45,385 nucleotides of DNA, from assembly GCF_023699475.1 (NCBI RefSeq), contig NZ_JALXFV010000005.1:339746-385130 (forward strand). The letters run 5' to 3'. Both the position numbers and the translations under genes were made by a program. Origin of the DNA: Halomarina rubra (GTDB lineage Archaea > Halobacteriota > Halobacteria > Halobacteriales > Haloarculaceae). The notes beneath the pieces were generated by a model. It was not told the DNA's origin. It did no database searches and was given only the letters and a program-made list of their open reading frames with translations. Below are positions 4,918 to 38,475 of the stretch, one piece after another; the first letter of the stretch is position 1, and every line of letters begins with the position of its first letter.

Positions 4918-4988
4918 GACGAACCACCCCACACGGACGAGAGAGAGTCGTTCGCGGCGACCTGCCGCGCGAATGTCGTGTAATGCAT
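4914..4988 (-). CDS. Leader ORF upstream of secreted repeat protein 1 (24 aa)
   Basis: A short ORF beginning MHYTTFARQV and ending GGSS, 24 residues. Its ATG lies about 37 nt downstream of the TATA box centre, so the mRNA leader would be about 10 nt. Its TGA overlaps the GTG of the surface-protein gene (GTGA, 4 nt), the classic layout for termination-reinitiation coupling. The GGGGTGG just before the overlap resembles a Shine-Dalgarno site for the downstream start. The peptide sequence does not resemble the leaders of the two paralogues, but position, length and overlap do. Whether it is translated is inferred, not shown. Confidence 0.5.
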   Translation of the reverse strand: MHYTTFARQVAANDSLSSVWGGSS

Positions 4989-5020
4989 TCAGTCAGAATA
5001 TCGGGACTTTCTGTCTTTGT

Positions 5021-5030
5021 TATTATATTG
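5021..5030 (-). promoter_or_regulatory. TATA box of leader ORF / secreted protein 1
   Basis: Read on the minus strand this is CAATATAATA in an AT-rich patch inside GC-rich DNA. A start site about 26-27 nt downstream would fall near 4999, about 10 nt before the leader ORF and about 80 nt before the surface-protein start. Confidence 0.55.
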
Positions 5031-5250
5031 ACAACCCTCGACTCACCGGGCTACATCCCTCGTTGAGTCTCGACGACCGGTCGAGCAGTTCGGTTCGAAC
5101 CCGTCCGGAACGCCACGACGAGCGGTTACACGGTGACTACCGGGGATTTCGGTCGGTTCGACGGCGACGGGTCCGTTCGCCGGGGTCATGGCCACCCACA
5201 CACCGACCCGACAGCGTACGGAGCCTGCGGCTCGCGGGTGGAGCGTCGAT

Positions 5251-5255
5251 AAAAA
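5251..5255 (-). terminator. T5 terminator tract of secreted protein 2
   Basis: T5 run on the minus strand, 23-27 nt after the stop codon of secreted protein 2 and upstream of the promoter of secreted protein 1, in the same relative position as in the two paralogous units. Confidence 0.5.
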
Positions 5256-5277
5256 CAGTGGTCGGTTGGCGTGTGAT

Positions 5278-6945
5278 TCAGGCCGTCGCTTCCGAGTCGT
5301 CACCGTCGAGGTCGATGGTGACCGTACCGGAGTCACCAGCGCCGAGGGTGACCGTCTGGTAGTCGACGAGTTCCTGACCGTCCGCGTTCGCGCGGACGAA
5401 GGTGGTGTCGTCGCCGGGCAGTTCGTAGCCCGCAAGCGTCAGCGTGACACCCTCGCAGTCGGCGTCGCCGTCGACGCTGACCGAGAGCGTGACCTCGCCG
5501 GTCTCGCCGTCGTAGCTCACCGGCGTGTAGCTGACGTGACAGCCCGCGAGGGACTTCGTCACGTTCTCGCCGGGCACCATGTAGCTGCCCGTCACGGTGC
5601 CGTCGGCGAGGACGGTCTGGGCCTGCAGGAGGCGGCCCTGCGTGCCGTAGAAGTCCTTCTCGTCGTCGGCGTCGTCGCCGTCGACGCCGAGGTTCTCGAT
5701 GACCTGGCCGGCCGCGACGTCGATCTGGTAGGCGGGCATCTCGCCGTCACCCATGTCGCCGTCACCGTCGTCGCCATCGCCAGCATCGCCGTCGTCACCG
5801 TCGTCGCCGTCACCAGCATCGCCGTCGCCGTTGTCGCCGTCGCCAGCGTCACCGTCACCGTTGTCACCGTCGTCCGCACAGTCGACTACGACGGTCGTCT
5901 CGCCGACGACCTCACCGCCGACGATGGTGGTGACGTTGTACTCGCCGTCCGGCACGTTCTCGAACGTGAGGTTCTCGCCCGCGGCGATGGTCTCGGTCAG
6001 CGACGCGTCGCCGCTGACTTCGATGGTGACCGGCACGTCGTTGTCGTTCGTCACGGTCGCGTTCGCACCGTCCGCACCGCAGACGACCTCCACGCTGACC
6101 TCACTGTCGGTCAGACAGTCGACCACGACCGTCTGCACGCCGACTTCCGTGCCGTCGTACAGCGTGGTCACGTCGAACTCGTTGTTCTGGACGCCGGTGT
6201 ACGTCTGGTTCTCGCCGGGAGCGAGCGTCAGCGTCCGCCCGCCGACGTCGACGTCCACCGCCACGTCGTTCTCGTTGCTCACCGTCACCGTCGCCCCGTC
6301 GACGCCGCACTGAACGTCGACGTCGACCTCACCGATTGCGGGACAGTCGACCACGACCGTCTCGGTCGCGATCTCGCGGCCGTCGACGATGGTGGTGACG
6401 TTGTACTCGCCGTCTGCGACACCCTCGAACGTGAGGCTCTCGCCCGCGGCGATGGTCTCGGTCAGCGACGCGTCACCGCCAATCTCGACGGTGATGGGCG
6501 CGTCGTTGTCGTTCGTCACGGTCGCCATCGCGCCGTCGACACCGCACGTGTAGTCGACGTTAGCGCCCTCCGGGCCACACTCCTCCGGAGCCTCGTAGAC
6601 GCCGTCACCGAGGATGCCCACGAACGCGATGGACTGAATCTGGTACTGGTCTGCCAGCGTGATGGACAGACTCGTCGCGCTGAGGACCTCGACGATGCCG
6701 CCGCGGTCCTCGCTGTCGATCGTGATGGTCTCGTACGTTCCTGCGGTCGTGTTGTAGACGTCGATCTCCGCACTGCCGGTCGCGAGCGCGGTCACGTCGA
6801 TGCCGGCGACGTTGACGACGTTACAGCTGTCGAACGTCACGTCCGCGACGTCCTGCCGTTGCGCGGGCACGTTGACGAGCATGCCGGCCCCGACGGCCGA
6901 CGTGACGAGCAACGCGGTCATGACGACAGCTACGAGCCGTCTCAT
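5278..6945 (-). CDS. Secreted repeat protein 2 (three two-Cys beta repeats, Asp-Gly linker)
   Basis: A 555-residue secreted paralogue of its neighbours. The ATG at 6945 gives a Sec-type signal peptide (MRRLVAVVMTALLVTSAVGA); the frame is open 27 codons further up, but that extension is unlike a signal peptide and collides with the leader ORF. Order of parts: N-domain (about 28-125, one Cys, ending in ECGPEG), three repeats of about 77 residues (about 130-355), an Asp/Gly-rich linker (about 356-401) and the shared C-module (about 401-555). Repeats 2 and 3 are nearly identical, also in DNA, to repeats 4 and 5 of secreted protein 3. An AGGTG sequence about 9 nt before the start could act as a Shine-Dalgarno site. 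No membrane anchor or lipobox is visible, so attachment to the cell is unknown. Confidence 0.85.
   Translation of the reverse strand: MRRLVAVVMTALLVTSAVGAGMLVNVPAQRQDVADVTFDSCNVVNVAGIDVTALATGSAEIDVYNTTAGTYETITIDSEDRGGIVEVLSATSLSITLADQYQIQSIAFVGILGDGVYEAPEECGPEGANVDYTCGVDGAMATVTNDNDAPITVEIGGDASLTETIAAGESLTFEGVADGEYNVTTIVDGREIATETVVVDCPAIGEVDVDVQCGVDGATVTVSNENDVAVDVDVGGRTLTLAPGENQTYTGVQNNEFDVTTLYDGTEVGVQTVVVDCLTDSEVSVEVVCGADGANATVTNDNDVPVTIEVSGDASLTETIAAGENLTFENVPDGEYNVTTIVGGEVVGETTVVVDCADDGDNGDGDAGDGDNGDGDAGDGDDGDDGDAGDGDDGDGDMGDGEMPAYQIDVAAGQVIENLGVDGDDADDEKDFYGTQGRLLQAQTVLADGTVTGSYMVPGENVTKSLAGCHVSYTPVSYDGETGEVTLSVSVDGDADCEGVTLTLAGYELPGDDTTFVRANADGQELVDYQTVTLGAGDSGTVTIDLDGDDSEATA
5742..5877 (-). 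repeat. Asp-Gly codon repeat tract of secreted protein 2
   Basis: Imperfect tandem array of GAC/GGC/GCC-type triplets encoding about 45 residues of alternating DGD, NGD and AGD units between the last beta repeat and the C-module. It forms a flexible, highly negative linker and, at DNA level, a simple-sequence tract prone to changes in length in multiples of three. Confidence 0.8.
6056..6326 (-). repeat. Long direct repeat shared with secreted protein 3 (copy A)
   Basis: Positions 6056-6134 match 8170-8248 without a difference (79 bp), and 6170-6326 matches 8284-8440 with two differences that I found. Both copies are in the same orientation and encode the same two beta repeats, so the pair could recombine to delete or fuse the genes, or be kept alike by gene conversion. 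Confidence 0.85.
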
Positions 6946-7007
6946 CGATACACCTGCACACTGGGAGCGGGCCGGGACGACCCACCTGTGATGGTTTCCG
7001 AATCCAT
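6942..7007 (-). CDS. Leader ORF upstream of secreted repeat protein 2 (21 aa)
   Basis: A 21-residue ORF beginning MDSETITGG and ending VQVYR. Its ATG is 30 nt downstream of the TATA-box centre, so the transcript would start only 2-3 nt before it and the ORF would be translated leaderless. Its TGA overlaps the ATG of the surface-protein gene (ATGA, 6945-6942). The first four residues, MDSE, and the first 12 nt are identical to the leader of secreted protein 3. The first 17 nt can form a hairpin, ATGG-A-TT-CGG-AA-A-CCAT. Translation is inferred. Confidence 0.55.
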   Translation of the reverse strand: MDSETITGGSSRPAPSVQVYR

Positions 7008-7032
7008 GCAACCACCCCTTCCACAAAGTCAG

Positions 7033-7043
7033 GTATTGTTACA
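7033..7043 (-). promoter_or_regulatory. Conserved promoter element of unit 2
   Basis: On the minus strand this reads TGTAACAATAC. Unit 3 has TGTAACTATAC at exactly the same distance from its leader ATG, with a shared AACCT just upstream in both. The A/T-rich half is placed as a TATA box for a start site immediately before the leader ORF. Confidence 0.65.
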
Positions 7044-7286
7044 AGTAGGTTTTCAGCTATTATCGTCGAGATACCACGACCCGGACCACTGGTCGAGAAA
7101 ACCGCAACACGGAGCCGCGTTAACAGTTCCTAAAAGTCCCAAACCGATGTTATAACTCCTATACTGAAGGTCAGTTTCTACTGTCTTTCTAGCCAGTTTT
7201 TGTTTTCTCCAGTCACTTCCAACGCCATCGCAGCGACAGGAGTGGCACGAAGTCCGAACCCGTCGGTCGACGGTCGTCGGGTGTCG

Positions 7287-7291
7287 AAAAA
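7287..7291 (-). terminator. T5 terminator tract of secreted protein 3
   Basis: T5 run on the minus strand about 29-33 nt past the stop codon of secreted protein 3, matching the layout of the other two units. Confidence 0.5.
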
Positions 7292-7319
7292 TGAGTCGGA
7301 CAGCGTCGACGCGTCGTCG

Positions 7320-9554
7320 CTATCCGTCGAGGTCGATGGTGACCGTGCCGGACTCGCCGGCACCGAGCGTCACCGTCTCGTAGTCGACGAGTTCCTGGCC
7401 GTCCGCGTTCGCGCGGACGAAGGTGGTGTCGTCGCCGGGCAGTTCGTAGCCCGCGAGCGTCAGCGTGACACCCTCGCAGTCCGCACCGTCCGCGACGCTC
7501 ACGCTCAGCGTCACTTCACCGGTCTCGCCGTCGTAGCTGACCGGGTCGTAGCTGACCGCACAGCCCGCGAGGTCCTTCGTGACCTCGCCGGTTGGCACGT
7601 TGTAGCTGCCGGTGACCGTGCCGTCGGCGAGGACCGTCTGGGCCTGCAGGAGGCGGCCCTGCGTGCCGTAGAACGCGTCCTCGTCGGCACCGAGGTTCTC
7701 GATGACCTGGCCGGCCGCGACGTCGATCTGGTAGGCGGGCATCTCGCCGTCACCAGCGTCACCGTCGCCGGAGTCACCGTCACCAGCGTCACCGTCGCCG
7801 GCATCGCCGTCGTCGCCATCGCCAGCATCGCCGTCACCGTCGTCACCATCGCCGGTGTCGCCGTCACCAGCGTCACCGTCGCCAGCGTCGCCGTCACCGC
7901 TGTCGCCATCGCCAGCGTCGCCATCACCGTTGTCGCCGTCTCCGGCATCGCCGTCACCAGCGTCACCGTCACCGTTGTCACCGTCGTCCGCACAGTCGAC
8001 CACGACGGTCTGGGTGCTGATGACCTCACCGCCGACGATGGTGGTGACGTTGTACTCGCCGTCCGGCACGTTCTCGAACGTGAGGGTGCCACCGGCCTCG
8101 ATGGTCTCGGTCAGCGACGCGTCGCCGCTGACTTCGATGGTGACCGGCACGTCGTTCGGGTTGGTGACCGTCGCGTTCGCACCGTCCGCACCGCAGACGA
8201 CCTCCACGCTGACCTCACTGTCGGTCAGACAGTCGACCACGACCGTCTCGGTCGCGACCGTCGTCCCGTCGACGGAGGTCGTGACGTCGAACTCGTTGTT
8301 CTGGACGCCGGTGTACGTCTGGTTCTCGCCGGGGGCGAGCGTCAGCGTCCGCCCGCCGACGTCGACGTCCACCGCCACGTCGTTCTCGTTGCTCACCGTC
8401 ACCGTCGCCCCGTCGACACCGCACTGAACGTCGACGTCGACACCGCCGACGTCGGGGCAGTCGATGTTGACGGTCTTCGTCCCGACCGCCTCACCGTCGA
8501 CGATGGTCTCTATCTCGTAGCTCCCGTCGTCGAGCCCTTCGAGCGTGAGGTTCTCGCCCGCGCCGATCTGGATCGGGCCACGGTCGTTGACGGTCACGTT
8601 GACCGCCACGTCGTTCGGGTTCTCGACGGTCAGGTCACCGCCCTCGTCGGTACACTGCAAGCTGAGAGTGACTTGGCTCGGTCCGTCACAGTCGACGGTG
8701 ACCGTCACGGTACTGATTGTCTCGCCACCGGCGCTCGTCTCCACCTCGTAGCTCCCGTCGTCGAGACCTTCGAAGGTGGTGTTCGCACCGGGTGCGACGG
8801 TCCGGGTCTCCCCGTCGACCGTGACGTTGACCGCGACGTCGTTCGGGTTGGTCGCCGTCAGGTCACCACCCTCGGCCGTACACTGCAGGTCGAGGGTGAC
8901 GCGACTCGGACCGTCGCAGTCGATGTTGACGGTCTTCGTCCCGACCGCCTCGCCGCCGTAGAGCGTCGTGACCTCGTAGCTCCCGTCGTCGAGGCCCTCG
9001 AACGTGGTGTTCTCGCCCGCCCCGATCTGGATCGGGCCGCGGTCGTTGATCGAGACGTTGACCGCCACGTCGTTCGGGTTCTCGACGGTCAGGTCACCGC
9101 CCTCGTCGGTACACTGCAGGCCGAGGTCGACCTGACTCAGGTCGCCGGCGTCCGTCGGGCCACAGTCACTCGGGTTCCGCAGGGACTCACCACCGATGGT
9201 GAGACCGAGGAGCTCGTAGCCGCTGACGGTGGCCAGACTCAGGTCGTCCTGGAGGTCCAACCGCAGCGTGTCGTACTCGTCGGCGTCGCCGTCGAGCAGG
9301 TCGTTCCCGTCGACGGTCAGCGACTCGGTGGCACCCGCCGACACGTTGTACAACGTCAGTGTCGCGTCGGCGTCGGTGACGGACGTCAGCTCTAACCCGA
9401 GGAGTTCGACCTCGTTACAGCCGACGAAGTTCACGTCGACGCCGTCGAGCGTCCCGTCGGGTCCGTCCTGGATGGGAGCGCCGACGATGGCACCAGCCCC
9501 CATCGAAGACAGCACGACCGCCGCTATCATCAGGACGGCTGTCGCTCGTTTCAT
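7320..9554 (-). CDS. Secreted repeat protein 3 (five two-Cys beta repeats, long Asp-Gly linker)
   Basis: A 744-residue secreted protein with a Sec signal peptide ([20 protein letters not shown]), an N-domain (about 25-135, ending DCGPTDAG), five repeats of about 76 residues (about 140-521), a long Asp/Gly linker (about 522-604) and the C-module shared with both neighbours (about 605-744; contains [17 protein letters not shown]). Repeats 1-3 are of the [20 protein letters not shown] type, repeats 4-5 of the [20 protein letters not shown] type found in secreted protein 2, so the gene looks like a mosaic. Cysteines are rare in haloarchaeal proteins, and two per repeat at fixed sites points to disulfide-locked extracellular domains. 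The ATG overlaps the stop of a leader ORF. Function is unknown; a surface fibre or adhesin is an inference. Confidence 0.85.
7742..7987 (-). repeat. Asp-Gly codon repeat tract of secreted protein 3
   Basis: About 80 codons of imperfect DGD/AGD/NGD/SGD units made from GAC, GGT/GGC and GCT/GCC triplets. It is roughly twice as long as the homologous tract in secreted protein 2 although the sequences on either side are nearly the same, so the tract itself has expanded or contracted. Confidence 0.85.
8170..8440 (-). repeat. Long direct repeat shared with secreted protein 2 (copy B)
   Basis: Partner of the repeat at 6056-6326, same orientation, about 2.1 kb away. It encodes most of beta repeat 4 and part of repeat 5 of secreted protein 3. 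Confidence 0.85.
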
Positions 9555-24256: not shown

Positions 24257-25552
24257 ATGTTCGGAACAAGCGGCATTCGCGGTCCCGTGGGTGACGTGGT
24301 GACGGCGGACCTCGCGCTCGCGGTCGGGCGGGCCGTGGGTGTCGAGGCGGACCGCGTCGTCGTCGGGCGAGACCCGCGTGCCAGCGGGCGACTGCTCGTC
24401 GACGCACTGACGGCGGGACTCCGGGAGATGGGCACGGACGTCGTCGACGTGGGCGAGGCGGCGACACCCACCGTCGCCCGCGCCGTCGCGTGGGAGGACT
24501 GCGACGCGGGCGTCTCGGTCACGGCGAGCCACAACCCCGCCGAGGACAACGGCATCAAACTCTGGCAGCCGAGCGGACAGGCGTACGACGAGGCCGGCCG
24601 CGAGCGCATCGAGGCACGACTCCGCGAGCGCGAGTTCGACCTCGAAGCGTGGGACGGTCTGGGCACCCGGACCAGCGCGGACGCGGGCGAGCGCCACGTC
24701 GAGGCGCTCGTCGACAGCGTCGACGTCGACGACCCGCCGGCGGTCGCCGTCGACCTCGGCAACGGCGCGGGTGCAGTGAGCGTCGAGGCCCTCCAGCGAC
24801 TCGGCTGTCACGTCGAGACGCTCAACGCCCAGCCCGACGGCCGATTCCCGGGGCGACCGAGCGAACCGAACGACGAGACGCTCACCTCGCTGTGTTCGCT
24901 CGTCGGCGCGAGCGACGCCGTGCTGGGCATCGCCCACGACGGCGACGCCGACCGGATGATGGCCGTCGACGAACACGGCGAGTTCGTCCCGAAGGACGCC
25001 CTGCTCGCCGTCCTCGCCGCCGAGTCGACGGCCGCGGGCGAGCGGGTGGCGGTCCCCGTCGACACCAGCCTCGCGGTGACGGACTACCTCGCCGAGCGCG
25101 ACGTCGCGGTCGAGCACACGCCCGTCGGAGACGTCTACGTCGCCGAGGCGCTGGGCGGGGACGTCACCTTCGGGGGCGAGCCGTCGGGGGCGTGGATCTG
25201 GCCCGACCAGACGCTCTGTCCGGACGGTCCGCTCGCGGCGTGTCGGCTCGTGGAACTCGCCGCCGACCGGCCGCTCTCCGAACGAATCGCCGAAGTGCCC
25301 GACTACCCCATCCGCCGGGCGAACGTCGAGGTCGAGGACAAAGCGCGGGTGATGGCCGACGTCCGCGAGCGAGCGAGCGGGGAGTACGACGCCGAGGACA
25401 TTTCGACCATCGACGGCGTGCGCGTCGACCGCGACGACGCGTGGTTCCTGGTGCGCGCCAGCGGGACCCAGCCGCTGGTGCGAGTCACCGCCGAAGCCAG
25501 AGACGCCGAGCGCGCAGAAGCAGTGTTGGAGGAAGCGCAGTCGCTGCTGTAG
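24257..25552 (+). CDS. glmM: Phosphohexomutase, probable phosphoglucosamine mutase
   Basis: A 431-residue phosphohexomutase, a second member of the same superfamily as pgm. It has MFGTSGIRGPVG at the N-terminus, the serine loop TASHNPAEDNGIK, HDGDADRMMAV, GGEPSGAWIW as sugar loop and RASGTQPLVRV as phosphate loop. The FGTSGIRG start is typical of GlmM/ManB-type archaeal enzymes, which make glucosamine 1-phosphate (or mannose 1-phosphate) for UDP-GlcNAc. Sugar specificity is uncertain because the sugar loop has Ala where GlmM usually has His. A TATA-like AGCTATGTAG sits about 27 nt before the ATG. Confidence 0.88.
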   Translation: MFGTSGIRGPVGDVVTADLALAVGRAVGVEADRVVVGRDPRASGRLLVDALTAGLREMGTDVVDVGEAATPTVARAVAWEDCDAGVSVTASHNPAEDNGIKLWQPSGQAYDEAGRERIEARLREREFDLEAWDGLGTRTSADAGERHVEALVDSVDVDDPPAVAVDLGNGAGAVSVEALQRLGCHVETLNAQPDGRFPGRPSEPNDETLTSLCSLVGASDAVLGIAHDGDADRMMAVDEHGEFVPKDALLAVLAAESTAAGERVAVPVDTSLAVTDYLAERDVAVEHTPVGDVYVAEALGGDVTFGGEPSGAWIWPDQTLCPDGPLAACRLVELAADRPLSERIAEVPDYPIRRANVEVEDKARVMADVRERASGEYDAEDISTIDGVRVDRDDAWFLVRASGTQPLVRVTAEARDAERAEAVLEEAQSLL

Positions 25553-27774: not shown

Positions 27775-27881
27775 ACTCGCGAGTCAGCGGCGGGAGGTAA
27801 AAGCCGGACGGTCGGACGCGACGGCCCGGCGAACGGCGCAGATTCCGAACGCTTACTTTCGTCGAAAAGTCAGAACGCGTG

Positions 27882-29285
27882 ATGACTGATTCGGTGCGCC
27901 ACCGACTGATGGGCTTCGGTGGCGTCTTCGCCCTCACGGCCCTGACGGTCGTGCTGGTCAACAACCCCGCCGTTCAGTCGTTCGCCACCTCCATCCCCGT
28001 CCTCCAACGGCTCTCGCCCGACCCACCGGGGAGCGCCGAGTTCCTCATCGAACTGCTCGTCACGCTGGTCGTGTTCACCGTGGCGTTCGTCCCGCTGTAC
28101 CGCCCCCAACCGCGGCGCATCCTGGACGTGCTCGTCCAGTGCATCGAGCGGGTCGTGCTCGCCGGCCTCGTCCTCGCGACCATCGGCTACTTCGACTACA
28201 CCTACCGCCTCCCGCGGTTCACCCTCCTCGTCGTCGTCCCGATTCTAGGCGTCGCACTCCCGATGTGGTTCGTCTGGATCCGCCGCCGCCCCGCCCGCGA
28301 GACCAACCGGGCCATCGTCGTCGGCGACGACCCCCGACAGATCGAGCGGGACATCGAGGACACCGAGGTCCCCCTGCTGGGTTACCTCTGTCCGTCAAGC
28401 CGGTTCCGCGCCGAAGGCGAGTCCGTGCGCGCGTTGTCGGACGGCGGGGTCTCGGCGGACGGTCTGGAACGCCTCGGCGGCCTCTCGCGCATCGAGGACG
28501 TGCTGGTGTCCTACGACGTCGACACCGCGGTGTTGGCGTTCGAACAGGCCGACCGCGCGGAGTTCTTCGGCGCGCTCGACGCCTGTTTCGAACACGGCGT
28601 CGACGCGAAGGTCCACCGCGAACACGCCGACTCGGTGCTGACCGAGGATGCGGCGGCCGGCACGCTCGTCGACGTCGAGATCGAGCCGTGGGACGTCGAG
28701 GACTACCTGCTGAAACGCGCGTTCGACGTCGTGTTCGCGACGGTCGGCCTGGCGCTGCTCGCACCGGTCATCGTCCTGATCTCGCTCGCCATCAAACTCG
28801 ACGACGGCGGGCCGGTGCTCTACAGACAGGACCGGACGGCCGTGTTCGGGGAGGTGTTCGACGTCTACAAGTTCCGGACGATGACCCCGGAAGGAGCGTC
28901 GGACGTCCCCGTCGAGGACGCCGACAACGACCGTATCACCCGTGTCGGCAAGTGGTTGCGGCAGACGCACCTCGACGAGGTTCCACAGCTCTGGTCGATC
29001 CTGAAGGGTGAGATGAGCGTCGTCGGCCCCCGAGCGGTGTGGACGGCCGAGGAAGGCCACCTCGAAGCGGAGTCCGACACCTGGCGCAAACGCTGGTTCA
29101 TCAAACCGGGGCTGACCGGGTTGGCGCAGATCAACCAAGCGAAGAGCACGGACCCGACGGCCAAGCACTACCACGATATGCGGTACGTCGCCGAGCAGTC
29201 GTTCTGGTTCGATCTGAAGATTATCGCTCGGCAGGTTTGGGCAGTCGGAGTCGACATGTGGGGGATGACTTCTTCTCGGCGCTGA
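27882..29285 (+). CDS. Polyprenyl-phosphate sugar-1-phosphate transferase (phosphoglycosyl transferase)
   Basis: A 467-residue membrane enzyme of the bacterial sugar transferase (WbaP/PssY-like) type, which starts a lipid-linked glycan by moving a sugar 1-phosphate from a nucleotide sugar to a polyprenyl phosphate. There are about four N-terminal helices, a Rossmann-like middle domain (AIVVGDDPRQIERDI) and the C-terminal catalytic domain from about residue 277: KRAFDVVFATVGLALLAPV, YRQDRTAVFGEVFDVYKFRTM, LDEVPQLWSILKGEMSVVGPR and KPGLTGLAQIN. The catalytic Asp-Glu pair in HLDEVPQ is present. The ATG at 27882 directly follows a GTG that could also start it. It is GC-rich like the chromosome and stands at the left edge of the AT-richer glycan island. 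Confidence 0.92.
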   Translation: MTDSVRHRLMGFGGVFALTALTVVLVNNPAVQSFATSIPVLQRLSPDPPGSAEFLIELLVTLVVFTVAFVPLYRPQPRRILDVLVQCIERVVLAGLVLATIGYFDYTYRLPRFTLLVVVPILGVALPMWFVWIRRRPARETNRAIVVGDDPRQIERDIEDTEVPLLGYLCPSSRFRAEGESVRALSDGGVSADGLERLGGLSRIEDVLVSYDVDTAVLAFEQADRAEFFGALDACFEHGVDAKVHREHADSVLTEDAAAGTLVDVEIEPWDVEDYLLKRAFDVVFATVGLALLAPVIVLISLAIKLDDGGPVLYRQDRTAVFGEVFDVYKFRTMTPEGASDVPVEDADNDRITRVGKWLRQTHLDEVPQLWSILKGEMSVVGPRAVWTAEEGHLEAESDTWRKRWFIKPGLTGLAQINQAKSTDPTAKHYHDMRYVAEQSFWFDLKIIARQVWAVGVDMWGMTSSRR

Positions 29286-29528: not shown

Positions 29529-31010
29529 TCAGTCGATTGCTTGGCTGATAGTCCCTCGAAAGATTCTCCGCTCTTCGTCCTCTACACCGACGATTCGAAT
29601 ATACGTGAGGAGATAAGCGGATAGGAACACCAAATAGAGCAGATATGAAGCGGTTCCCTCCATCGAAGTTGCGAGATAGTGGAGGAGGGTGGCGAGTCCA
29701 AACGTGGTAGCAGAAAACGCTAGAAGTGGTGTTCGAACGGGAACGATTCGAGTGGCACGGTAGAGAACCAACGAGTAGAGGGCGTTGATGAAGACATACG
29801 AGACGGTGGTCGCGACCGCAGCACCTACCAGGGAAAACTCTGGAATTAGAAGTAGGTTCAGAACGACGTTGACGGCTGCAGCGAGTACGTTGATGTAGAG
29901 AATCACCCGAGTCCGCCCGAGCGACGTCAGTGTTGTCCCATTCAGCCCAACGACCGAGTGGATATAGAACCCAACTGCCAGAAGACTCAGTGCCAAACCT
30001 CCGGAGACGTATTCAGGGCCGTACAACAGTCCGATGATATCTTCGGAGTAGACGACGAATCCGACTAGAATCGGTGTCGTAGTCAGGAACAGCCACTTCG
30101 TGACCAATTGGTAGTTCTGATGAATTCGGTCCACCTGCTCGGCTTTGTCCAATTCAGAAATGCGTGGCATGTAGATGAAGCGGAAGGACCGGAGGAAAGC
30201 CAAGAGGAGTATCGCGGTTGGATACACGACGTTGTAGACGCCGACATCAGCCTGGGTCGAGAAGAGACCGAGCATCAGCGTATCGACATCGGAGAGTACG
30301 AGACTGAGTGCCCCGGTTAGAAACAGGGGGGCGGAGAACGAGAGTAGTTCTCGTATGTGAGTCTCCTCTGGAACGGAGAGATCGAAGTCCGTCCACCTGT
30401 ACACGTATGCCAACCCCACCACTGCTGCAATCACGTACGCACAGACGTAGGCACCAGCCACACCGAGTGAGCCTGCTCCGATGAGGACTACACAGCCGAT
30501 ACCCACGATTCTGGAGATAGGGTACGTGAGGTTTCGGATGAACACCTTTGGGAGTGAGCGCTGGTACCCCTGACTGACCCCAATTGCGAGGCGCATCATC
30601 GCCGCCGCCGGAACAGAGACCGCGAGTACGGTGATCACTGCGGACAGCTGAGGGGTATCGAACGCCACAGTGGCTAACCAGTCAGCCGAGGCGACGAGAA
30701 CCGCCGTCGCCACGAGCGAGAGCATTCCCACGATTCCTATCGCTCCCCATAAGAGTCCGTGTTTCTCTCCTTCTCGGTCGAGTCGCGGAAGAAACCGGCC
30801 GACACCAGTATGAACACCGGCTAACACAACGGTTGTAGTCATCGCGAGTATCGTCACTCCGAGAGCGACACCACCATAGTCGACCTTGCCCAGATACCGG
30901 GCGATAATTATCTTCCCGACGAGGGAGATGAGTAGTTCAATGGAGAGTCCAGCGAACAGTACCCATCCACCAGTGAAGATCGATTTGAGACCAGACGTGT
31001 CCTCACTCAT
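29529..31010 (-). CDS. Oligosaccharide flippase (Wzx/MATE-like polysaccharide biosynthesis protein)
   Basis: A 493-residue membrane protein with about 12-14 helices, of the polysaccharide-export branch of the MOP superfamily, expected to flip a lipid-linked oligosaccharide across the membrane. GWVLFAGLSIELLISLVGKIIIARYLG near the N-terminus and the long run of hydrophobic segments with charged short loops are typical, as is the LLYGPEYVSGGLALSLLAVG region in the second half. The gene overlaps the end of the GT4 gene by 8 nt, so the two are one operon. Codon use is AT-richer than the chromosome. Confidence 0.88.
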   Translation of the reverse strand: MSEDTSGLKSIFTGGWVLFAGLSIELLISLVGKIIIARYLGKVDYGGVALGVTILAMTTTVVLAGVHTGVGRFLPRLDREGEKHGLLWGAIGIVGMLSLVATAVLVASADWLATVAFDTPQLSAVITVLAVSVPAAAMMRLAIGVSQGYQRSLPKVFIRNLTYPISRIVGIGCVVLIGAGSLGVAGAYVCAYVIAAVVGLAYVYRWTDFDLSVPEETHIRELLSFSAPLFLTGALSLVLSDVDTLMLGLFSTQADVGVYNVVYPTAILLLAFLRSFRFIYMPRISELDKAEQVDRIHQNYQLVTKWLFLTTTPILVGFVVYSEDIIGLLYGPEYVSGGLALSLLAVGFYIHSVVGLNGTTLTSLGRTRVILYINVLAAAVNVVLNLLLIPEFSLVGAAVATTVSYVFINALYSLVLYRATRIVPVRTPLLAFSATTFGLATLLHYLATSMEGTASYLLYLVFLSAYLLTYIRIVGVEDEERRIFRGTISQAID

Positions 31011-32070
31011 CGAAGAAGGTGGTCAGGTACGATTCGAACTGTGAGCCGATCACTTCCGAGTCGTTGTTGGACTTAACGTACTGGTATCCCTGTTCTCCGA
31101 GTCGTTCTCTCTCTTTCGGTGAATCGAGGAGTTCCCCGATACAACGTTCGAGTTCTTCTGGCTTGTCCAGATCGACGAGATATCCCGTCTCTCCGTCCAC
31201 AATCTGTTCACGCATGCCGACGGCGTCGTTCGCAACGACTGGTGTTCGCGACGCGTAGGCCTCCAACACGGTCGACGGGTATCCATCAAGGAGCGAGAAG
31301 TGGACGAAGATGTCCGCACGGTTGTATAGCGATTCGATTTCGGAGACGTATCCAAGGACTCGAATGTCTCCGGGGAGCGCCTCGGCACGCTCCTCAACGC
31401 GGTACTGATACGGACCTTGGCCGGCGATGAGCAGTGTCGTATCAGAGTTCTTCTCGAGAACAGTGGACAGAGGTCCGAGAGACTGCATCAAGCCTCGCGT
31501 CTTCTTTTGATACTGCATATTTGCAACAGCGAGGATGACTTTTTGCCCTTCGGGGAGGTCAAGCGATGTCTGCGGATTCTCGTCACACTCACTGTCAAGC
31601 ATAAAACAGGGAGTATTCACCACGACCCCGCGTTCGTCATCACTCGGGTATAGGTCTTGTAGATACTCCGAAACGAACAGGTGGTTTCGTGTCGCCTTGA
31701 GGGAAGTCATCGTGGCGACGTAGCGTGGTATCTGTTTGACAGCCTGCGTGTAGGTGCCCGTCGCCAGATGCCTCCGGAACGTACTGCGATGCTCGGTCAT
31801 CGCATCGCCCCGAATTCGAACTACATACGGAATCGAGAACAGAACTCTCGACACCGCAACGGCGAAACCAGCGAAGGAGAGTGAATCGACGATGACTACA
31901 GTCGGGTCTTCGGAGCCAATCGCTCTGATGAGGTCCGGAACCTGCCCAACGGCAGTGATGGTAAACGACGTTGTTGGAACGCCTGCTTCCGCGAGTGGAC
32001 GAGTGATCTTCTCCCCTCGGTCGCTTGTCGAGACGACGAAGACACTCAACGGGTTGGAAGGGGTTGGCAT
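31003..32070 (-). CDS. Glycosyltransferase, GT4 family
   Basis: A 355-residue GT-B fold retaining glycosyltransferase. The C-terminal half has the nucleotide-sugar binding signature: VILAVANMQYQKKTRGL, TLLIAGQGPYQYRVEERA, FVHFSLLDGYPSTVLEAYASRTPVVANDAVG (E-x7-E region, here in the DGYPSTVLEAYA form) and GYLVDLDKPEEL. It would add one sugar to the lipid-linked glycan on the cytoplasmic face. Donor and acceptor cannot be inferred. It overlaps the flippase by 8 nt and follows the polymerase gene after 248 nt. Confidence 0.88.
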   Translation of the reverse strand: MPTPSNPLSVFVVSTSDRGEKITRPLAEAGVPTTSFTITAVGQVPDLIRAIGSEDPTVVIVDSLSFAGFAVAVSRVLFSIPYVVRIRGDAMTEHRSTFRRHLATGTYTQAVKQIPRYVATMTSLKATRNHLFVSEYLQDLYPSDDERGVVVNTPCFMLDSECDENPQTSLDLPEGQKVILAVANMQYQKKTRGLMQSLGPLSTVLEKNSDTTLLIAGQGPYQYRVEERAEALPGDIRVLGYVSEIESLYNRADIFVHFSLLDGYPSTVLEAYASRTPVVANDAVGMREQIVDGETGYLVDLDKPEELERCIGELLDSPKERERLGEQGYQYVKSNNDSEVIGSQFESYLTTFFDE

Positions 32071-32318: not shown

Positions 32319-34043
32319 TCAGTGGGTGAGCCGGTAGTGTTCACCCACCAACATACCACACAGAGCCCAGAAGGGAAGAATAGCGGTTGGCTTGTTGAAC
32401 AACGGGTTCAGGTTCAACTGTGCAATCGCACCAACGAGTCCGGACAGCACTCCGATGACGACAAGGGTATCAGATCGGGACAATACGAGCACCCGAAGGC
32501 CGGAGAAAATCGACAGTCCGAGACTTGCACAGTACAACAAAAATCCAGGGATACCCGTCCCAACGAGAACCTGTAAGAACATATTGTGGAGCCAGTACGA
32601 ACGGTCTAGACTAGTCTGGACAGCCGCGGATGGGAAGTTCGCTCCACCGATGCCAAAGACTGGATGCTCAACGGTCAATCCGAGCGACTCGACGTACATC
32701 TGCAACCGGATACCTAGATTGGACGTGTCGAAAAACGGAATATCGAACGACCCAGTAGGGGACGGGTTTCCACCCGATTCGACTGGCTGAGCCTCTGTAC
32801 TCGATGGTGTAGCTGTCGTCTGGGTTCCCGTCGGCTGAGTCCCCACATCGGACGGAGTTTCTGCCAAACGGGTCCCCTCGGGAGAAACGTCTGTAGATGG
32901 AGTAGAAGGAGACGGAGTCTCGGTTGACCCCGTCTCCCCTCTTTCACTGAGGTTCGGCAGCGCGGCCGTCCCAGAACTGGTCCCCGGAAGCAGGAGAAAG
33001 ACGATGGCTAGAACGCCGCCGAGGAGCGTCACAAGTAGGTTTCCGGAGGAATTCGAGAACGGGTTTCGGATTTCCTTCCGGAACGTCCACAGCCCCAGAG
33101 CCGCAAAGCAAACGAGCGCAACGACGATACCACCTCGCCCAGCGTCCCACGCAGTTGTACGCTGAACGAACACCATCATCAGGACTGCGAGAGTCCAAAG
33201 CAGTCGTTTCTTGCCCTGTTCGCGGAACGCGTAGGCGACCCCCACCGGGACAGCCAAGGTAATCAGGACGGCAATCGGGCCTCCGAACGCAAAACCGTTG
33301 ATGTGGGGACCAATCGGGAAGCTACCGAGCGGACCCAGAGTCAGATACTCCGAGGCGGTGCGGGCGGCTTCGCCGTGGTGTGGAAATCCGAGAGGACCTC
33401 CATTGACGAACTGCAACAGTCCGACGATGGAATGTGCGAGAACGGCGACGACGATCAGGAGGGTGGCGTGCCGAAGCTCGACGATTCCGTCCGCGACGAG
33501 CCAGGTCGAAATCAGGAAGATGAGACCGATTTGGAACACGTACAGCGTGAAGTAGTACGCCATATCGGGTCGCGGACCATTCCCAACGACAGCGGCGAGG
33601 AGACTCCAGCCAACGAATCCGGCGAACAGGTAGTGAGCGAGTGACACTGTCGGCACCGTCCCACGCGAAAAGTAGTACAACACGATGCACGCGAGAGGAG
33701 CGTAGAAAATCCATATCTGTGGGCCGATTCCAGCAATGATGTCTCGGCTCGGACCTGCGGGTATAGCAATCCGAACCGTGATCAGAATCAGGAGTGACGC
33801 GACGAAACCCGCGAGAAGGTCCTCGGAATACAGGATGTAGCCACCGTAGACGAGGCCACAGATCGCAATCGCGACGTACTCTTTCTCGGGCAGCGGCGGC
33901 AGAAAAGTCCGAAATGCTGTGGTCAGAACTGGCGACAGAACGAACAAGAGTAGAGTGAGGACACCTCCGGAGACGATAAACGAACGGCTGTCAGGAGGTT
34001 CGGTATCGATTCGGAGACGGGAGATTACCCCGCTAAAACTCAT
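32319..34043 (-). CDS. O-antigen ligase/polymerase-like membrane protein
   Basis: A 574-residue membrane protein with about 11-12 helices and the WaaL/Wzy-type signature region around GVGGANFPSAAV-like sequence (here FGIGGANFPSAAVQTSLDRSYWLHNMFLQVLVGTG), which ends the large external loop. Such proteins polymerise or ligate lipid-linked glycans on the outer face. Between helices, residues about 350-432 form a long Ser/Thr/Pro-rich stretch (TETPSPSTPSTDVSPEG and similar), unusual for the family and a candidate O-glycosylation region. Which of polymerase or ligase it is cannot be told from sequence. Confidence 0.8.
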   Translation of the reverse strand: MSFSGVISRLRIDTEPPDSRSFIVSGGVLTLLLFVLSPVLTTAFRTFLPPLPEKEYVAIAICGLVYGGYILYSEDLLAGFVASLLILITVRIAIPAGPSRDIIAGIGPQIWIFYAPLACIVLYYFSRGTVPTVSLAHYLFAGFVGWSLLAAVVGNGPRPDMAYYFTLYVFQIGLIFLISTWLVADGIVELRHATLLIVVAVLAHSIVGLLQFVNGGPLGFPHHGEAARTASEYLTLGPLGSFPIGPHINGFAFGGPIAVLITLAVPVGVAYAFREQGKKRLLWTLAVLMMVFVQRTTAWDAGRGGIVVALVCFAALGLWTFRKEIRNPFSNSSGNLLVTLLGGVLAIVFLLLPGTSSGTAALPNLSERGETGSTETPSPSTPSTDVSPEGTRLAETPSDVGTQPTGTQTTATPSSTEAQPVESGGNPSPTGSFDIPFFDTSNLGIRLQMYVESLGLTVEHPVFGIGGANFPSAAVQTSLDRSYWLHNMFLQVLVGTGIPGFLLYCASLGLSIFSGLRVLVLSRSDTLVVIGVLSGLVGAIAQLNLNPLFNKPTAILPFWALCGMLVGEHYRLTH

Positions 34044-34169: not shown

Positions 34170-35021
34170 TCACACTCTAGCGAACAACTCGTAGATCGTT
34201 CCGCGAAGTCGATTGGGGAATAGTCGCAGCGGCGTACGGGTGAGTAGATTAAAGATTAGCACGTGGAGGGGTGTGAACCCCCGTTTGTAAAATGAAACCA
34301 GCAACCGAGCCTCGTCTTTGGCGTACTTCCAACCCCCTCTCCGTTCGTACAACTTCTCGCCGGCTCGGGCCTTTAGCAGTATTTCTGGGATATTTCCGAA
34401 CGTGGCCCCAGAGAGCAACATTCGGACCCAAAGGTCGTAATCTTCCATCGGGTCGGTAGCTCGGTAGTTCCCTGCACGGAGCACGGCCTCTCTCCGGAAC
34501 ATGACCGTACCGTGGTTCATTGGACTACGGAACTTCGCCCGCTTCACGATAGCGTCGTGGTCAGTCGGCACCTCGCGTCTTGCGACTGGGTCGTCAGGCG
34601 ACGATTGGAACTCCTCGAGGTAGCCCCCGATGATATCGACGGAGGGATTTTCTTGGAGGTATCCGAGTTGTCGCTCGAACCGCGACGGAACCGAGATATC
34701 ATCAGCGTCCATTCGAGCGATGACGTCGTGAGAGCACCTCTCGACACCGACACGGAGAGCGTTACCCAGACCTTGGTTCCGCTCGATTGCGTGTGTCTCC
34801 ACCACTGATGATGCAGAACACTTCCGTTGAACGAGTTCGTTCAGACGGAGTGTCAGAGGCCCGTCCTGAACGATTAGAATTTCGTCCGGAGGGTGAGATT
34901 GTGACAGAATGCTTTCGATTGCGACCTCCAGTTCTCGGGGGTCGTCGCCCTGATAGATGGGGAGTAAAACCGAAAATTCAGGAACGTTTGTAGGAGAAGA
35001 GCGTGATGGAGAATCTACCAA
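34170..35021 (-). CDS. Glycosyltransferase, GT2 family
   Basis: A 283-residue GT-A fold glycosyltransferase. FSVLLPIYQGDDPRELEVAIESIL is the nucleotide-binding strand-loop, ILIVQDGP and IARMDADDIS give the metal-binding DxD, and MNHGTVMFRREAVLRAGNYR and EDYDLWVRMLLSG give the acceptor and catalytic-base (ED) region. It would transfer a sugar from a nucleotide donor in the cytoplasm. No ATG or GTG fits the N-terminus; the only start before the first strand is TTG at 35021, so a TTG start is inferred. AT-rich codon use, part of the island. Confidence 0.88.
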   Translation of the reverse strand: MVDSPSRSSPTNVPEFSVLLPIYQGDDPRELEVAIESILSQSHPPDEILIVQDGPLTLRLNELVQRKCSASSVVETHAIERNQGLGNALRVGVERCSHDVIARMDADDISVPSRFERQLGYLQENPSVDIIGGYLEEFQSSPDDPVARREVPTDHDAIVKRAKFRSPMNHGTVMFRREAVLRAGNYRATDPMEDYDLWVRMLLSGATFGNIPEILLKARAGEKLYERRGGWKYAKDEARLLVSFYKRGFTPLHVLIFNLLTRTPLRLFPNRLRGTIYELFARV

Positions 35022-35257: not shown

Positions 35258-37639
35258 ATGGTTACAGCCGGCGACGTCCACGCCCTCCTCGCAGACCGGC
35301 CCGAACTGGTCCCGGCGGTCGAGGCCGTGCTCGCGGCCGACGAGCCGTTCGCCTTCGCGGACCTGTCGGTCGACTCGGGGCGGTTCGGGGAACTCGTCTC
35401 CCAGGGCGTCGTCGAGAAGACGTCGGAGGGTGAGTACCGCGTCGCCGACCGCGGTGCTGTCCGGCAGGGACTCGAAGCCGCACGAACCGGCGACACCGAG
35501 CGCGAGACGACGGCCACCGGAGGGGTCACCTCGAACGCCAGTCGTTCGACACCCTCGCTCCCGAGCTTCTCCGACTTCGACCGGAGCGACAAACTCACCG
35601 CTCTCGGACTCCTCGCGGGGCTCCTCCTCGTCGTCGCCTTCCGCCTCACCTCGTGGCCCGCCGTCTTTCGAGACGGTCACGTCGTCCTCTCCGGGAACGA
35701 CCCGTACTACTACCGGTTCCTCGTCGAGCAGTTGGTCACCGACCCGCAGGTGACACCCTCGAACCTCCCGGGCGCGGCCGCGAAGGGCGAACCCCTCACG
35801 GTCGTGAGCCTCTGGCTCGTCGCACTCCTGTTCGGCGGTCTCGACGCCGTCGGCGGCGTGCTCGCGTGGTACCCACCCGTCGCGGCCGCGACGACCGGCC
35901 TGCTCGTCTACGGTGTCGCCACCCTCGTCACCGACGACCGGCGGGTGGGTCTCGCGTCGGTGCTGATGCTCGCCGTCCTGCCCGGCCACGCGATGCGGAC
36001 GAGCATGGGCTTCGCCGACCACCACGCCTTCGACTACGTCTGGCTGGCGCTCACGCTGCTGGGCGTCGTGGCCGTGACCGTCGCCGCGCGGCGCTCGCAG
36101 GCGCGTTCACGACCGCGACTCGGCCTCTCGGGCGTCGGTGTCGCGACGGTCGCACTCGGCGTGACCGGCCAGGTACTGGCGTGGGAGGCCGGCCCGCTGC
36201 TCGTGGTGCCGCTCGGACTCTACCTCGCGGTCGACGCCCTCAGAGCGGTCGCCGAGGAGGAGTCGCCGCTTCACACGGGCGGCCCGGTCGTGCTCGGCGT
36301 GGGCATCGCGGCCGCCCTGACCTGGCTCGTCCACAGCACGCTCGGCTGGCACACGACGCTCGTCGCCGCCGCGCCGGCGCTGGTCGCCGTCGGCGGGGTC
36401 GGCGTGCTGGTGCTCGGGGAGGCCGCCTACCGGACCGGCCTCCCGGCGTGGGCGCTCGCGGCCATCGAACTCGTCGGGGGTGTAGCTGCAGTGGTCGCAC
36501 TCCGGATGCTCGCTCCACAGTTCTGGACGGAGTTCACCACCGCGGCCACCGACCGCCTGTTCGCCGACCGCGCCATCGCGGAGGTTCAGAGCCTGTTCAG
36601 CGGGTCGCTCGGCTGGCTCCTGCTGTTCGGACTCCTGCTCCTGATTGCGCTCCCGTACCTCGGCTGGAGTCTCCACCGCGCTCGTACGGACGCCCGGTGG
36701 CTCCCGCTCGGCGTCTACGGGACGTACTTCCTCGTGCTCGCGGCCGTCCAGGTCCGGTTCGTCGGGCAGCTGTCGCCGGTCGTCGCCGTCTTCGCCGGCC
36801 TCGCGTTCGTCCACGTCGCCGGGTGGGCCGACGTCGTCGCTCCCCCGGCGCCGTTCGCCGGCGGCACCGCGCCGACGCTCTCGCTCCCCGACCGGTCGAC
36901 CGTCCAGGCGCTCGTCGTGCTGTTCGTCCTCCTCGCCGGGTTGAGCGTCGTCCAGGTGCCGCTGAAGACCAACCTGGTCACGACCGACGCCGGCGAGTAC
37001 GAGACCGCCGCGGAGATGAGCGCGTACAGCGAGAAGACGGGTCTGACCTACCCCGAGAACTACGTGCTGAGCAACTGGGGGGACAACCGGGTGTACAACT
37101 ACTTCGTCAGCGGCGAGTCGTTCTCCTACAGCTTCGCCGAGCGCCACTACCGGTCGTTCCTCTCGGGGACCGACGGCGAGGGCTGGTACGAGCGCCTGAA
37201 CCGGCGCGGGTTCGTCGTCACGACGGACGCCGCGGCGGGCAGCGGCCTGACGGTGACGAACGCGAACGGCGACGCCACGCCCGACATCGGGACCCGACTC
37301 CACGACGACTACGGCAGCCGGGACGGCGACGACCCGGGACTGGGCCACTACCGACTGGTCGCGACGGTCGACGACGGGCGCTACAAGGCGTTCCACCTGG
37401 TCCCCGGTGCGGTCGTGCGAGGCAGCGCCGACCCGTCCTCGACGGTGACCGTCGAGACGCGCGTCGAGGTCGACGGGACGTCGTTCGCCTACACGCGACA
37501 GACGACCGCCGACGCCGACGGGCAGTACAGCGTCCGGGTCGCCTACCCCGGCGCGTACGCCGTGCCCGGCACCGAGTCGCGAGTGACGGTCGAGGAGCGG
37601 GCGGTCCTGAACGGGACGACGGTTTCGACGGAAGCCTGA
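35258..37639 (+). CDS. STT3/AglB-related membrane protein with N-terminal winged-helix-like domain
   Basis: A 793-residue protein related to the oligosaccharyltransferase AglB/STT3. Residues about 1-75 look like a small helix-turn-helix-type domain (VDSGRFGELVSQGVVEKTSEGEYRVAD, broken here: FGELVSQGVVEKT, GEYRVAD). About 12 helices follow. GNDPYYYRF near residue 147 and GFADHHAFDYVW near 250 match the acidic metal-site motifs of STT3. Where AglB has WWDYG, this protein has SNWGDNRVYNYF near 605. A soluble beta-rich C-terminal domain follows (about 570-793). The changed motif makes standard N-glycosylation of Asn-X-Ser/Thr uncertain. It borders the glycan island and lies next to UppP. Confidence 0.8.
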   Translation: MVTAGDVHALLADRPELVPAVEAVLAADEPFAFADLSVDSGRFGELVSQGVVEKTSEGEYRVADRGAVRQGLEAARTGDTERETTATGGVTSNASRSTPSLPSFSDFDRSDKLTALGLLAGLLLVVAFRLTSWPAVFRDGHVVLSGNDPYYYRFLVEQLVTDPQVTPSNLPGAAAKGEPLTVVSLWLVALLFGGLDAVGGVLAWYPPVAAATTGLLVYGVATLVTDDRRVGLASVLMLAVLPGHAMRTSMGFADHHAFDYVWLALTLLGVVAVTVAARRSQARSRPRLGLSGVGVATVALGVTGQVLAWEAGPLLVVPLGLYLAVDALRAVAEEESPLHTGGPVVLGVGIAAALTWLVHSTLGWHTTLVAAAPALVAVGGVGVLVLGEAAYRTGLPAWALAAIELVGGVAAVVALRMLAPQFWTEFTTAATDRLFADRAIAEVQSLFSGSLGWLLLFGLLLLIALPYLGWSLHRARTDARWLPLGVYGTYFLVLAAVQVRFVGQLSPVVAVFAGLAFVHVAGWADVVAPPAPFAGGTAPTLSLPDRSTVQALVVLFVLLAGLSVVQVPLKTNLVTTDAGEYETAAEMSAYSEKTGLTYPENYVLSNWGDNRVYNYFVSGESFSYSFAERHYRSFLSGTDGEGWYERLNRRGFVVTTDAAAGSGLTVTNANGDATPDIGTRLHDDYGSRDGDDPGLGHYRLVATVDDGRYKAFHLVPGAVVRGSADPSSTVTVETRVEVDGTSFAYTRQTTADADGQYSVRVAYPGAYAVPGTESRVTVEERAVLNGTTVSTEA

Positions 37640-37665: not shown

Positions 37666-38475
37666 TCAGACGACCAACAGTCCGCCGAGCATCGCGACCG
37701 CACCGAGACCGAGACAGACCGCCCAGAACGAAACCCGCTCGACGACCCGGAGGAGCGCGTCGATGGTCACGTATCCCACGACGAACGCCGTGAGCAGTGC
37801 GACGCCGGCCTGCTGGGTCGTCACGTCCCCGAGTCCGGTGTCGAGGTAGGCGATGGTCGCGCCGCCGAGCGCCGCCGGGATGGAGAGGAGAAACGAGAAG
37901 CGGAACGCCGAGGAGCCGTCGTACCCCCGGAGGAGGAGCGTCCCGGTCGTCATCCCCGAGCGGGAGATCCCCGGGAGGATGGCGACGCCCTGTGCCGCGC
38001 CGACGAGGACGGCGTCGACCGCGTCCGGTTCGGTCTCGGCGCTCTCCCGTCCGGCCGTGAGCTTCTGGAACAACCCGGTCGCGACGAGCAACACGCCGAT
38101 GAGCACGACCACCGTCCCCCCGGTCAGTTCGTTCACCACCTCGTCCAACGTCGCGTAGGCCGCGAGGCCGACGACCCCCGAGACGAGCGTCCCGATGGCG
38201 AGGAACGTCACGGGTGCCTGTTCGCCCTCGAACGCCCGCCGTGGATGCCACCGCGGCAGGCGAGCGAGCAGGTCGGCGACCTCGTCGTGGTAGTACACCG
38301 CGGCCGAGAACGCCGTCCCCAGGTGCAAGAAGAGGCCGAAGGCGACCGCCGACTCGACTGGTTGGCCGAGCGCCGTGAGGACGACGGCGAGGTTCCCCTC
38401 ACTCGATATCGGGAGCCACTCGAAGATGCCCTGGAGGACGCCGGCGAGGAGCGCGACGAGGAGGGGCCGGTCCAT
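37666..38475 (-). CDS. uppP: UppP/BacA-type polyprenyl-diphosphate phosphatase
   Basis: A 269-residue membrane protein of the BacA/UppP family, which removes a phosphate from polyprenyl diphosphate to recycle the glycan lipid carrier on the outer membrane face. The two signature segments are GVLQGIFEWLPISSEGNL (with the catalytic Glu and Ser) and GAAQGVAILPGISRSGMT (with the Arg). About eight helices are predicted. The ATG at 38475 is about 27 nt after a CTTTAC patch on the minus strand, suggesting a leaderless message. It converges with the STT3-like gene (26 nt between stops) and fits as the final step of the glycan pathway. Confidence 0.93.
   Translation of the reverse strand: MDRPLLVALLAGVLQGIFEWLPISSEGNLAVVLTALGQPVESAVAFGLFLHLGTAFSAAVYYHDEVADLLARLPRWHPRRAFEGEQAPVTFLAIGTLVSGVVGLAAYATLDEVVNELTGGTVVVLIGVLLVATGLFQKLTAGRESAETEPDAVDAVLVGAAQGVAILPGISRSGMTTGTLLLRGYDGSSAFRFSFLLSIPAALGGATIAYLDTGLGDVTTQQAGVALLTAFVVGYVTIDALLRVVERVSFWAVCLGLGAVAMLGGLLVV

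Follow-up and report, generated by a model that had tools for sequence, protein, structure and literature searches.

The window, i.e. the whole stretch of 45,385 nucleotides that we have analysed, carries the gene of a divergent STT3/AglB paralogue, which we refer to as OST2. An earlier sequence-only reading of this DNA had placed such a paralogue here, and the open reading frame was recovered with the same coordinates and strand (Table 1). The Wzx-like flippase, the two glycosyltransferases and the Wzy_C protein are encoded on the minus strand and read away from OST2, and the GlmM encoded farther upstream is a possible source of HexNAc. The neighbourhood tables were produced with a home-made gene caller, and gene starts may be miscalled. 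Three similar secreted-looking proteins (725, 547 and 744 aa) are encoded in a row on the minus strand at positions 2755-9554 of the window.

Table 1. Genes and protein features at the OST2 locus (positions in the window)
Feature	Position	Strand	Remarks
Archaeal GlmM (phosphoglucosamine mutase)	24257..25552	+	TIGR03990 over cut-off
Polyprenyl glycosylphosphotransferase (PF02397, EPS_sugtrans-like)	27879..29285	+	Co-occurring initiating enzyme; 6.0 kb upstream of OST2
Wzx-like polysaccharide flippase (PF01943)	29529..31010	-	
GT4 glycosyltransferase	31003..32070	-	
O-antigen polymerase/ligase-like protein, Wzy_C (PF04932)	32319..34043	-	
GT2 glycosyltransferase	34170..35021	-	Divergent neighbour of OST2
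OST2, divergent STT3/AglB paralogue	35258..37639	+	793 aa
Winged-helix-like cytoplasmic domain	35258..35485	+	aa 1-76; model and fold searches; acidic
GT-C membrane domain	35582..37039	+	aa 109-594; AglB fold match Z 36; hhalign probability 99.9 over aa 115-528
First acidic motif, GNDPYYY	35693..35713	+	aa 146-152; N147 and D148 invariant in 45
Second acidic motif, DHH	36017..36025	+	aa 254-256; invariant in 45
Loop-5 glutamate E442	36581..36583	+	Aligned with TVNE glutamate of AglB
R500 of QVRF	36755..36757	+	Aligned with QxRF arginine of AglB
YVLSNWGDNRVYNYFVS in place of WWDYG	37061..37111	+	aa 602-618; alignment, family conservation
AglB_L1 peripheral domain	37406..37624	+	aa 717-789; PF18079 39.3 bits over cut-off 23.6
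UppP/BacA, polyprenyl-pyrophosphate phosphatase (PF02673)	37666..38475	-	Directly downstream of OST2, convergent

OST2 is a member of the STT3 superfamily, with 34.1 bits for the STT3 profile PF02516 (cut-off 24.5), and is not AglB proper, since it lacks WWDYG and reached only 144.5 bits with the haloarchaeal STT3 profile TIGR04154 (cut-off 450). We have computed an AlphaFold2 model from 45 family sequences (pLDDT 90.3, pTM 0.82) and compared it with AglB, as the earlier reading had proposed. The best solved-structure match was A. fulgidus AglB (Z 36.0 over 646 residues; Foldseek 2e-22), that is, the GT-C fold of an oligosaccharyltransferase (OST), whereas protein O-mannosyltransferase gave a Z of about 22. 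Neither the Wzy_C/O-antigen ligase profile (PF04932) nor those of protein O-mannosyltransferase (PF13231/PF02366) appeared among the OST2 profile matches at E up to 1.

The residues N147, D148, D254, H255, H256, W309, R500, W607 and N614 are invariant in 45 relatives, and E442 is conserved in at least 90% of them. The metal-binding acidic motifs and the loop-5 glutamate, which are expected of an STT3 protein, align with those of AglB. The WWDYG pocket holds the +2 Ser/Thr of the N-X-S/T sequon. In OST2, SNWGDNRVYNYF (aa 605-616) aligned by MAFFT with MSWWDYGHF of the AglB from the same genome, with a 4-residue insertion. As hhalign spans aa 115-528 only, the equivalence of the two motifs rests on this alignment, on the fold match and on the location of the motif where the C-terminal domain begins. 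Across the OST2 family the site reads YV[FL]SxWGxNRxYNYFV, or [ST]xWxxNRxYNYF in a shorter form. WWDYG was present in 0/85 distinct OST2 strings, some of them from the same gene or from close species, and in 30/30 AglB strings; the replacement motif [ST]xWxxx[RM]x.N was shared by 84 of the 85 OST2 strings. Judged from these strings, the change is therefore neither chance nor a sequencing error. The sequence-only reading was thus borne out in its main observations, namely an STT3/AglB paralogue with DPYYY and DHH kept and WWDYG replaced. With the catalytic residues kept and WWDYG lost, its idea that the lipid-linked sugar chemistry is retained and the acceptor-reading motif altered is supported as well. 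It had overlooked the catalytic E442, the lipid-phosphate arginine R500 and the AglB_L1 domain.

Using the family profile (E < 1e-60), we have counted OST2 in 214 of 391 haloarchaeal genomes, by hand from the profile matches, the remaining genomes mostly giving only a weak AglB cross-match. A canonical WWDYG AglB was found in 385 of the 391 (E up to 1e-60), and the window's genome also encodes one, with MSWWDYGH. In a tree built by a quick method and rooted at the midpoint, with a long-branch warning for L053, 43 OST2 and 30 AglB rows fell on opposite sides of one branch with a support of 100. This answered the phylogenetic question raised by the earlier reading: OST2 forms a clade separate from haloarchaeal AglB, and its sequences all lack WWDYG. 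With a canonical AglB encoded in the same genome, neither of the two outcomes that the earlier reading had named as grounds for rejection came about. A sample of 100 genomes of the phylum yielded no full-length match outside haloarchaea and partial matches only (best 1.9e-33); among seven such open reading frames inspected, six had WWDYG and one WWDDG. The search for viral relatives returned no match, and six plasmid records were retrieved, annotated as STT3 domain-containing, LamG-like (two) or hypothetical. Several OST2 members have frames of about 1000 aa (L046, L048, L054); together with the two LamG-like annotations, these point to a possible C-terminal carbohydrate-binding extension.

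The roughly 75 helix-turn-helix-like residues noted earlier ahead of the membrane part turned out to form a confidently predicted domain of about 76 residues (pLDDT 77-96 up to residue 80), followed by a disordered linker (79-102) and the first membrane helix at 109. Its nearest solved folds were nearly all winged-helix proteins, with weak scores (best Z 7.3; Foldseek E 0.085). The same domain heads an EMC3/TMCO1 (YidC-like) membrane protein of about 300 aa (L166:2011-2910, on contig C15 of the window's genome; also L167, L168 and L058), and in L057:1222-3045 it precedes a PMT_2 GT-C glycosyltransferase within one fusion protein. In an OST2-negative genome (G001, L059), a 131-aa scar joins the OST2 N-domain to an apparent UDP-glucose dehydrogenase fragment, as if the intervening region had been deleted. 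The N-domain contains on average 18.4 acidic versus 6.4 basic residues, and no basic position is conserved in what would be the recognition helix, as none of columns 40-48 has more than 2 basic residues among 28. DNA binding, which the earlier reading had considered, is thus unlikely, since the domain is acidic and common to an EMC3/YidC-like insertase; we have rejected it as the main reading on these grounds, on the missing conserved basic helix and on the sharing with the PMT_2 protein. The occurrence on the EMC3/TMCO1 protein suggests a shared adapter of membrane-protein biogenesis, and in OST2 the domain may act as a cytosolic adapter at the membrane or export site.

Among 58 non-redundant OST2 loci, the stretch contained a phosphotransferase in 35, a GlmU-like gene in 25, an epimerase in 22, a UDP-glucose dehydrogenase in 19, glmS in 10, Wzx in 10 and UppP in 9. 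A conserved 197-aa gene, which may resemble a tRNA methyltransferase, lies just upstream of OST2 in 15 of these loci, usually on the opposite strand (e.g. L040:5925-6518). The phosphotransferase was present in 205/214 OST2-positive versus 41/177 OST2-negative genomes, so that nine genomes of the first group and 41 of the second are exceptions; the figures for UppP were 179/214 and 35/177. The association held within the 27 genera having both OST2 states, for the phosphotransferase (104/111 versus 9/99, Mantel-Haenszel p 4e-31) and for UppP (94/111 versus 9/99, p 1e-23), these p-values ignoring relatedness within genera. Where both positions were listed (89 genomes), the phosphotransferase was within 5 kb of OST2 in 45 and within 20 kb in 65. 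Because OST2 co-occurs with both enzymes, polyprenyl pyrophosphate-linked glycans are its likely donor, and the phosphotransferase and UppP may serve one lipid-carrier cycle. According to the part of PMC3871713 on this point, haloarchaeal AglB pathways use dolichol monophosphate, and would therefore need neither enzyme.

We have also looked at possible acceptors. An S-layer-type gene (TIGR04207 signal) lay within 10 kb of OST2 in 10 of the 22 OST2-positive genomes with a known OST2 position, where 0.29 were expected from genome size; these genomes include close relatives. The genome that contains the window has its S-layer-type genes on contigs different from that of OST2, and phmmer found a csg-like protein in only 3 of the 58 OST2 stretches. 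The S-layer protein is the likely acceptor context. Asn at the mature N-terminus, a motif picked after seeing Halobacterium salinarum, was scored by eye in 11/46 proteins from OST2-positive versus 2/34 from OST2-negative genomes (34 of 40 chosen hits used in the latter, low-scoring hits left out), and 9 of the 11 lack Ser/Thr at +2. Fisher's test, which ignores relatedness between genomes, gave 0.036 by protein and 0.079 by genome. A regex recount gave 15/46 versus 2/34; it missed two of the by-eye set (L182, L192) and took looser or doubtful matches (L217 repeats the L216 string). Within genus g24 the motif was found in 3/3 OST2-positive versus 1/9 OST2-negative cases. We regard this signal as weak.

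Genome G161 was taken as H. salinarum because its bacteriorhodopsin is identical over 220/220 aa to the PDB protein and it encodes four rhodopsins. Its OST2 (L113:8803-11124, 773 aa, motif TYVFSRWSRNRLYNWF; TIGR04154 141.1 bits, below 450) is separated by 3.3 kb from the S-layer gene that precedes it (L113:2947-5487; TIGR04216 1181 bits). Next come glmS, a pair of GlmU-like genes and a phosphotransferase, and the run from S-layer gene to phosphotransferase fits within 14 kb. No UppP profile match was found in this genome. The S-layer protein start reads ...AAA-ANADQ, presumably cleaved to give ANADQ as the mature N-terminus, and its Asn-2 has no Ser/Thr at +2. In the relevant passages of a review (PMC2952790), Asn-2 bears a GalNAc-linked repeating-unit glycan, the assembly of which uses a pyrophosphate carrier and is inhibited by bacitracin. 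This glycan persists when Val, Leu or Asn takes the place of the sequon Ser, Ser-4 being replaceable. The same passages note that this result has found no suitable explanation, and state that several OSTs were proposed for the organism, yet one OST gene was found. Elsewhere, AglB handling of the Asn-2 glycan is described as uncertain (in the part of PMC6591318 concerned), and a 2014 paper mentions a single aglB in the H. salinarum genome (PMC4335974, in its statement on this gene). Neither the OST2 family nor another OST gene of H. salinarum besides aglB was described in the literature that we have searched, and none of the motif names looked for was present in PMC7226087. An OST2 without a +2 reader fits the Ser-mutant result and may explain this decades-old puzzle in a model microbe; if so, it would be the missing second OST of H. 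salinarum, a genetic model with published deletions.

The explanation that we favour, with a rough probability of 0.55, is that OST2 is a predicted second haloarchaeal OST which uses a polyprenyl pyrophosphate donor, does not read the +2 Ser/Thr and most likely targets the S-layer glycoprotein. We infer the type of donor, the acceptor, the sequon independence and the order of steps as follows. The bacterial-type phosphotransferase would load the first sugar phosphate onto polyprenyl phosphate, giving a pyrophosphate-linked sugar. The chain would be lengthened and flipped by the glycosyltransferases, together with the Wzx/Wzy-like pair in the window, and then passed on as a whole by the outward-facing OST2 to a surface protein, most probably an S-layer glycoprotein. 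UppP would strip the spare phosphate from the released lipid pyrophosphate and restore the monophosphate. Since another conserved motif replaces the WWDYG pocket, OST2 would not read N-X-S/T and would probably modify Asn at special sites, e.g. the N-terminal Asn-2 of the H. salinarum S-layer protein. A fuller version, to which we give somewhat less than even odds, adds that the donors are repeating polymers. In H. salinarum, OST2 would put the glycosaminoglycan-like GalNAc-linked chain on Asn-2 and AglB the dolichol-monophosphate tetrasaccharide, and the N-domain, an adapter as on the EMC3/YidC-like insertase, would couple transfer to export. Several results speak against the favoured explanation: the nine and 41 genomes that break the phosphotransferase association, the missing UppP match in H. 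salinarum, the csg-like protein in only 3 of 58 stretches, the S-layer-type genes on other contigs in the window's genome and the weak signal for Asn at the mature N-terminus. Noncanonical N-sites in Haloferax are also credited to AglB (PMC8241124, in the section on these sites).

The occurrence of OST2 in polysaccharide clusters means that the acceptor may be something other than protein. The enzyme could be a polymer ligase or polymerase, passing pyrophosphate-linked glycans to lipid or to a growing exopolysaccharide, and the neighbouring Wzx, Wzy_C, UDP-glucose dehydrogenase, epimerase and GlmU-like genes would suit this, as would the loss of the motif that reads a protein acceptor. However, OST2 keeps the AglB_L1 domain and an AglB-like C-terminal fold, the window cluster already has a separate Wzy_C protein, and S-layer genes lie nearby in 10 of 22 genomes; we hold this role to be unlikely. 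Less probable still is transfer of pyrophosphate-linked glycans to Ser/Thr by an O-linked OST with a PglL-like role. Bacterial O-linked OSTs use the same kind of polyprenyl pyrophosphate donors, which speaks for such a role, and the pocket lost from OST2 is the one that holds the sequon Ser/Thr. The retained loop-5 glutamate and GND pair, which in AglB activate the Asn amide, argue against it. The enzymes of archaeal O-glycosylation are described as not known (PMC8241124, in its part on O-glycans), which leaves room for this role, but the haloarchaeal O-glycans described there are disaccharides and not obviously polyprenyl pyrophosphate-linked polymers. That OST2 is an ordinary AglB variant, transferring to N-X-S/T through another pocket after a neutral motif change, agrees with the shared superfamily and fold and is nevertheless very doubtful, given a whole clade strictly changed to its own conserved motif, a separate canonical AglB in 385/391 genomes and the strong association of OST2 with another kind of lipid-donor pathway.

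If OST2 is indeed a second, sequon-independent OST, about half of the sampled haloarchaea (214/391) would possess a second, overlooked way of glycosylation, and glycoengineering would profit from a natural OST that is not bound to N-X-S/T.

Finally, we have compared OST2 with known systems. The AglB-independent Agl15 pathway of Haloferax volcanii calls for a non-AglB OST (PMC3871713 and PMC8241124, in their accounts of this pathway). Its donor is dolichol monophosphate, unlike the presumed donor of OST2; the H. volcanii control gave no match for UppP, and AglB is described as the only Stt3 homologue of this species (PMC3871713, in the same account). For these reasons OST2 is probably not the Agl15-pathway OST, and we have set this candidate aside. 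In the relevant part of PMC5898192, HVO_2052 is a separate candidate for that function; it belongs with MJ_1079 to arCOG00563, a distant PMT/STT3 relative with a GT-C fold, found near glycosylation genes. OST2 resembles AglB (A. fulgidus 7e9s/3waj; TIGR04154) in the GT-C fold, GND, DHH, the loop-5 glutamate, QxRF and AglB_L1, and differs from it in the absence of WWDYG, the extra winged-helix-like N-domain, the separate clade and the ties to a glycosylphosphotransferase and UppP. With bacterial PglB (5ogl, 6gxc) it shares the STT3 fold (Z about 28) and the presumed phosphotransferase-started polyprenyl pyrophosphate donor, whereas WWDYG and the C-terminal and N-terminal domains set the two apart.
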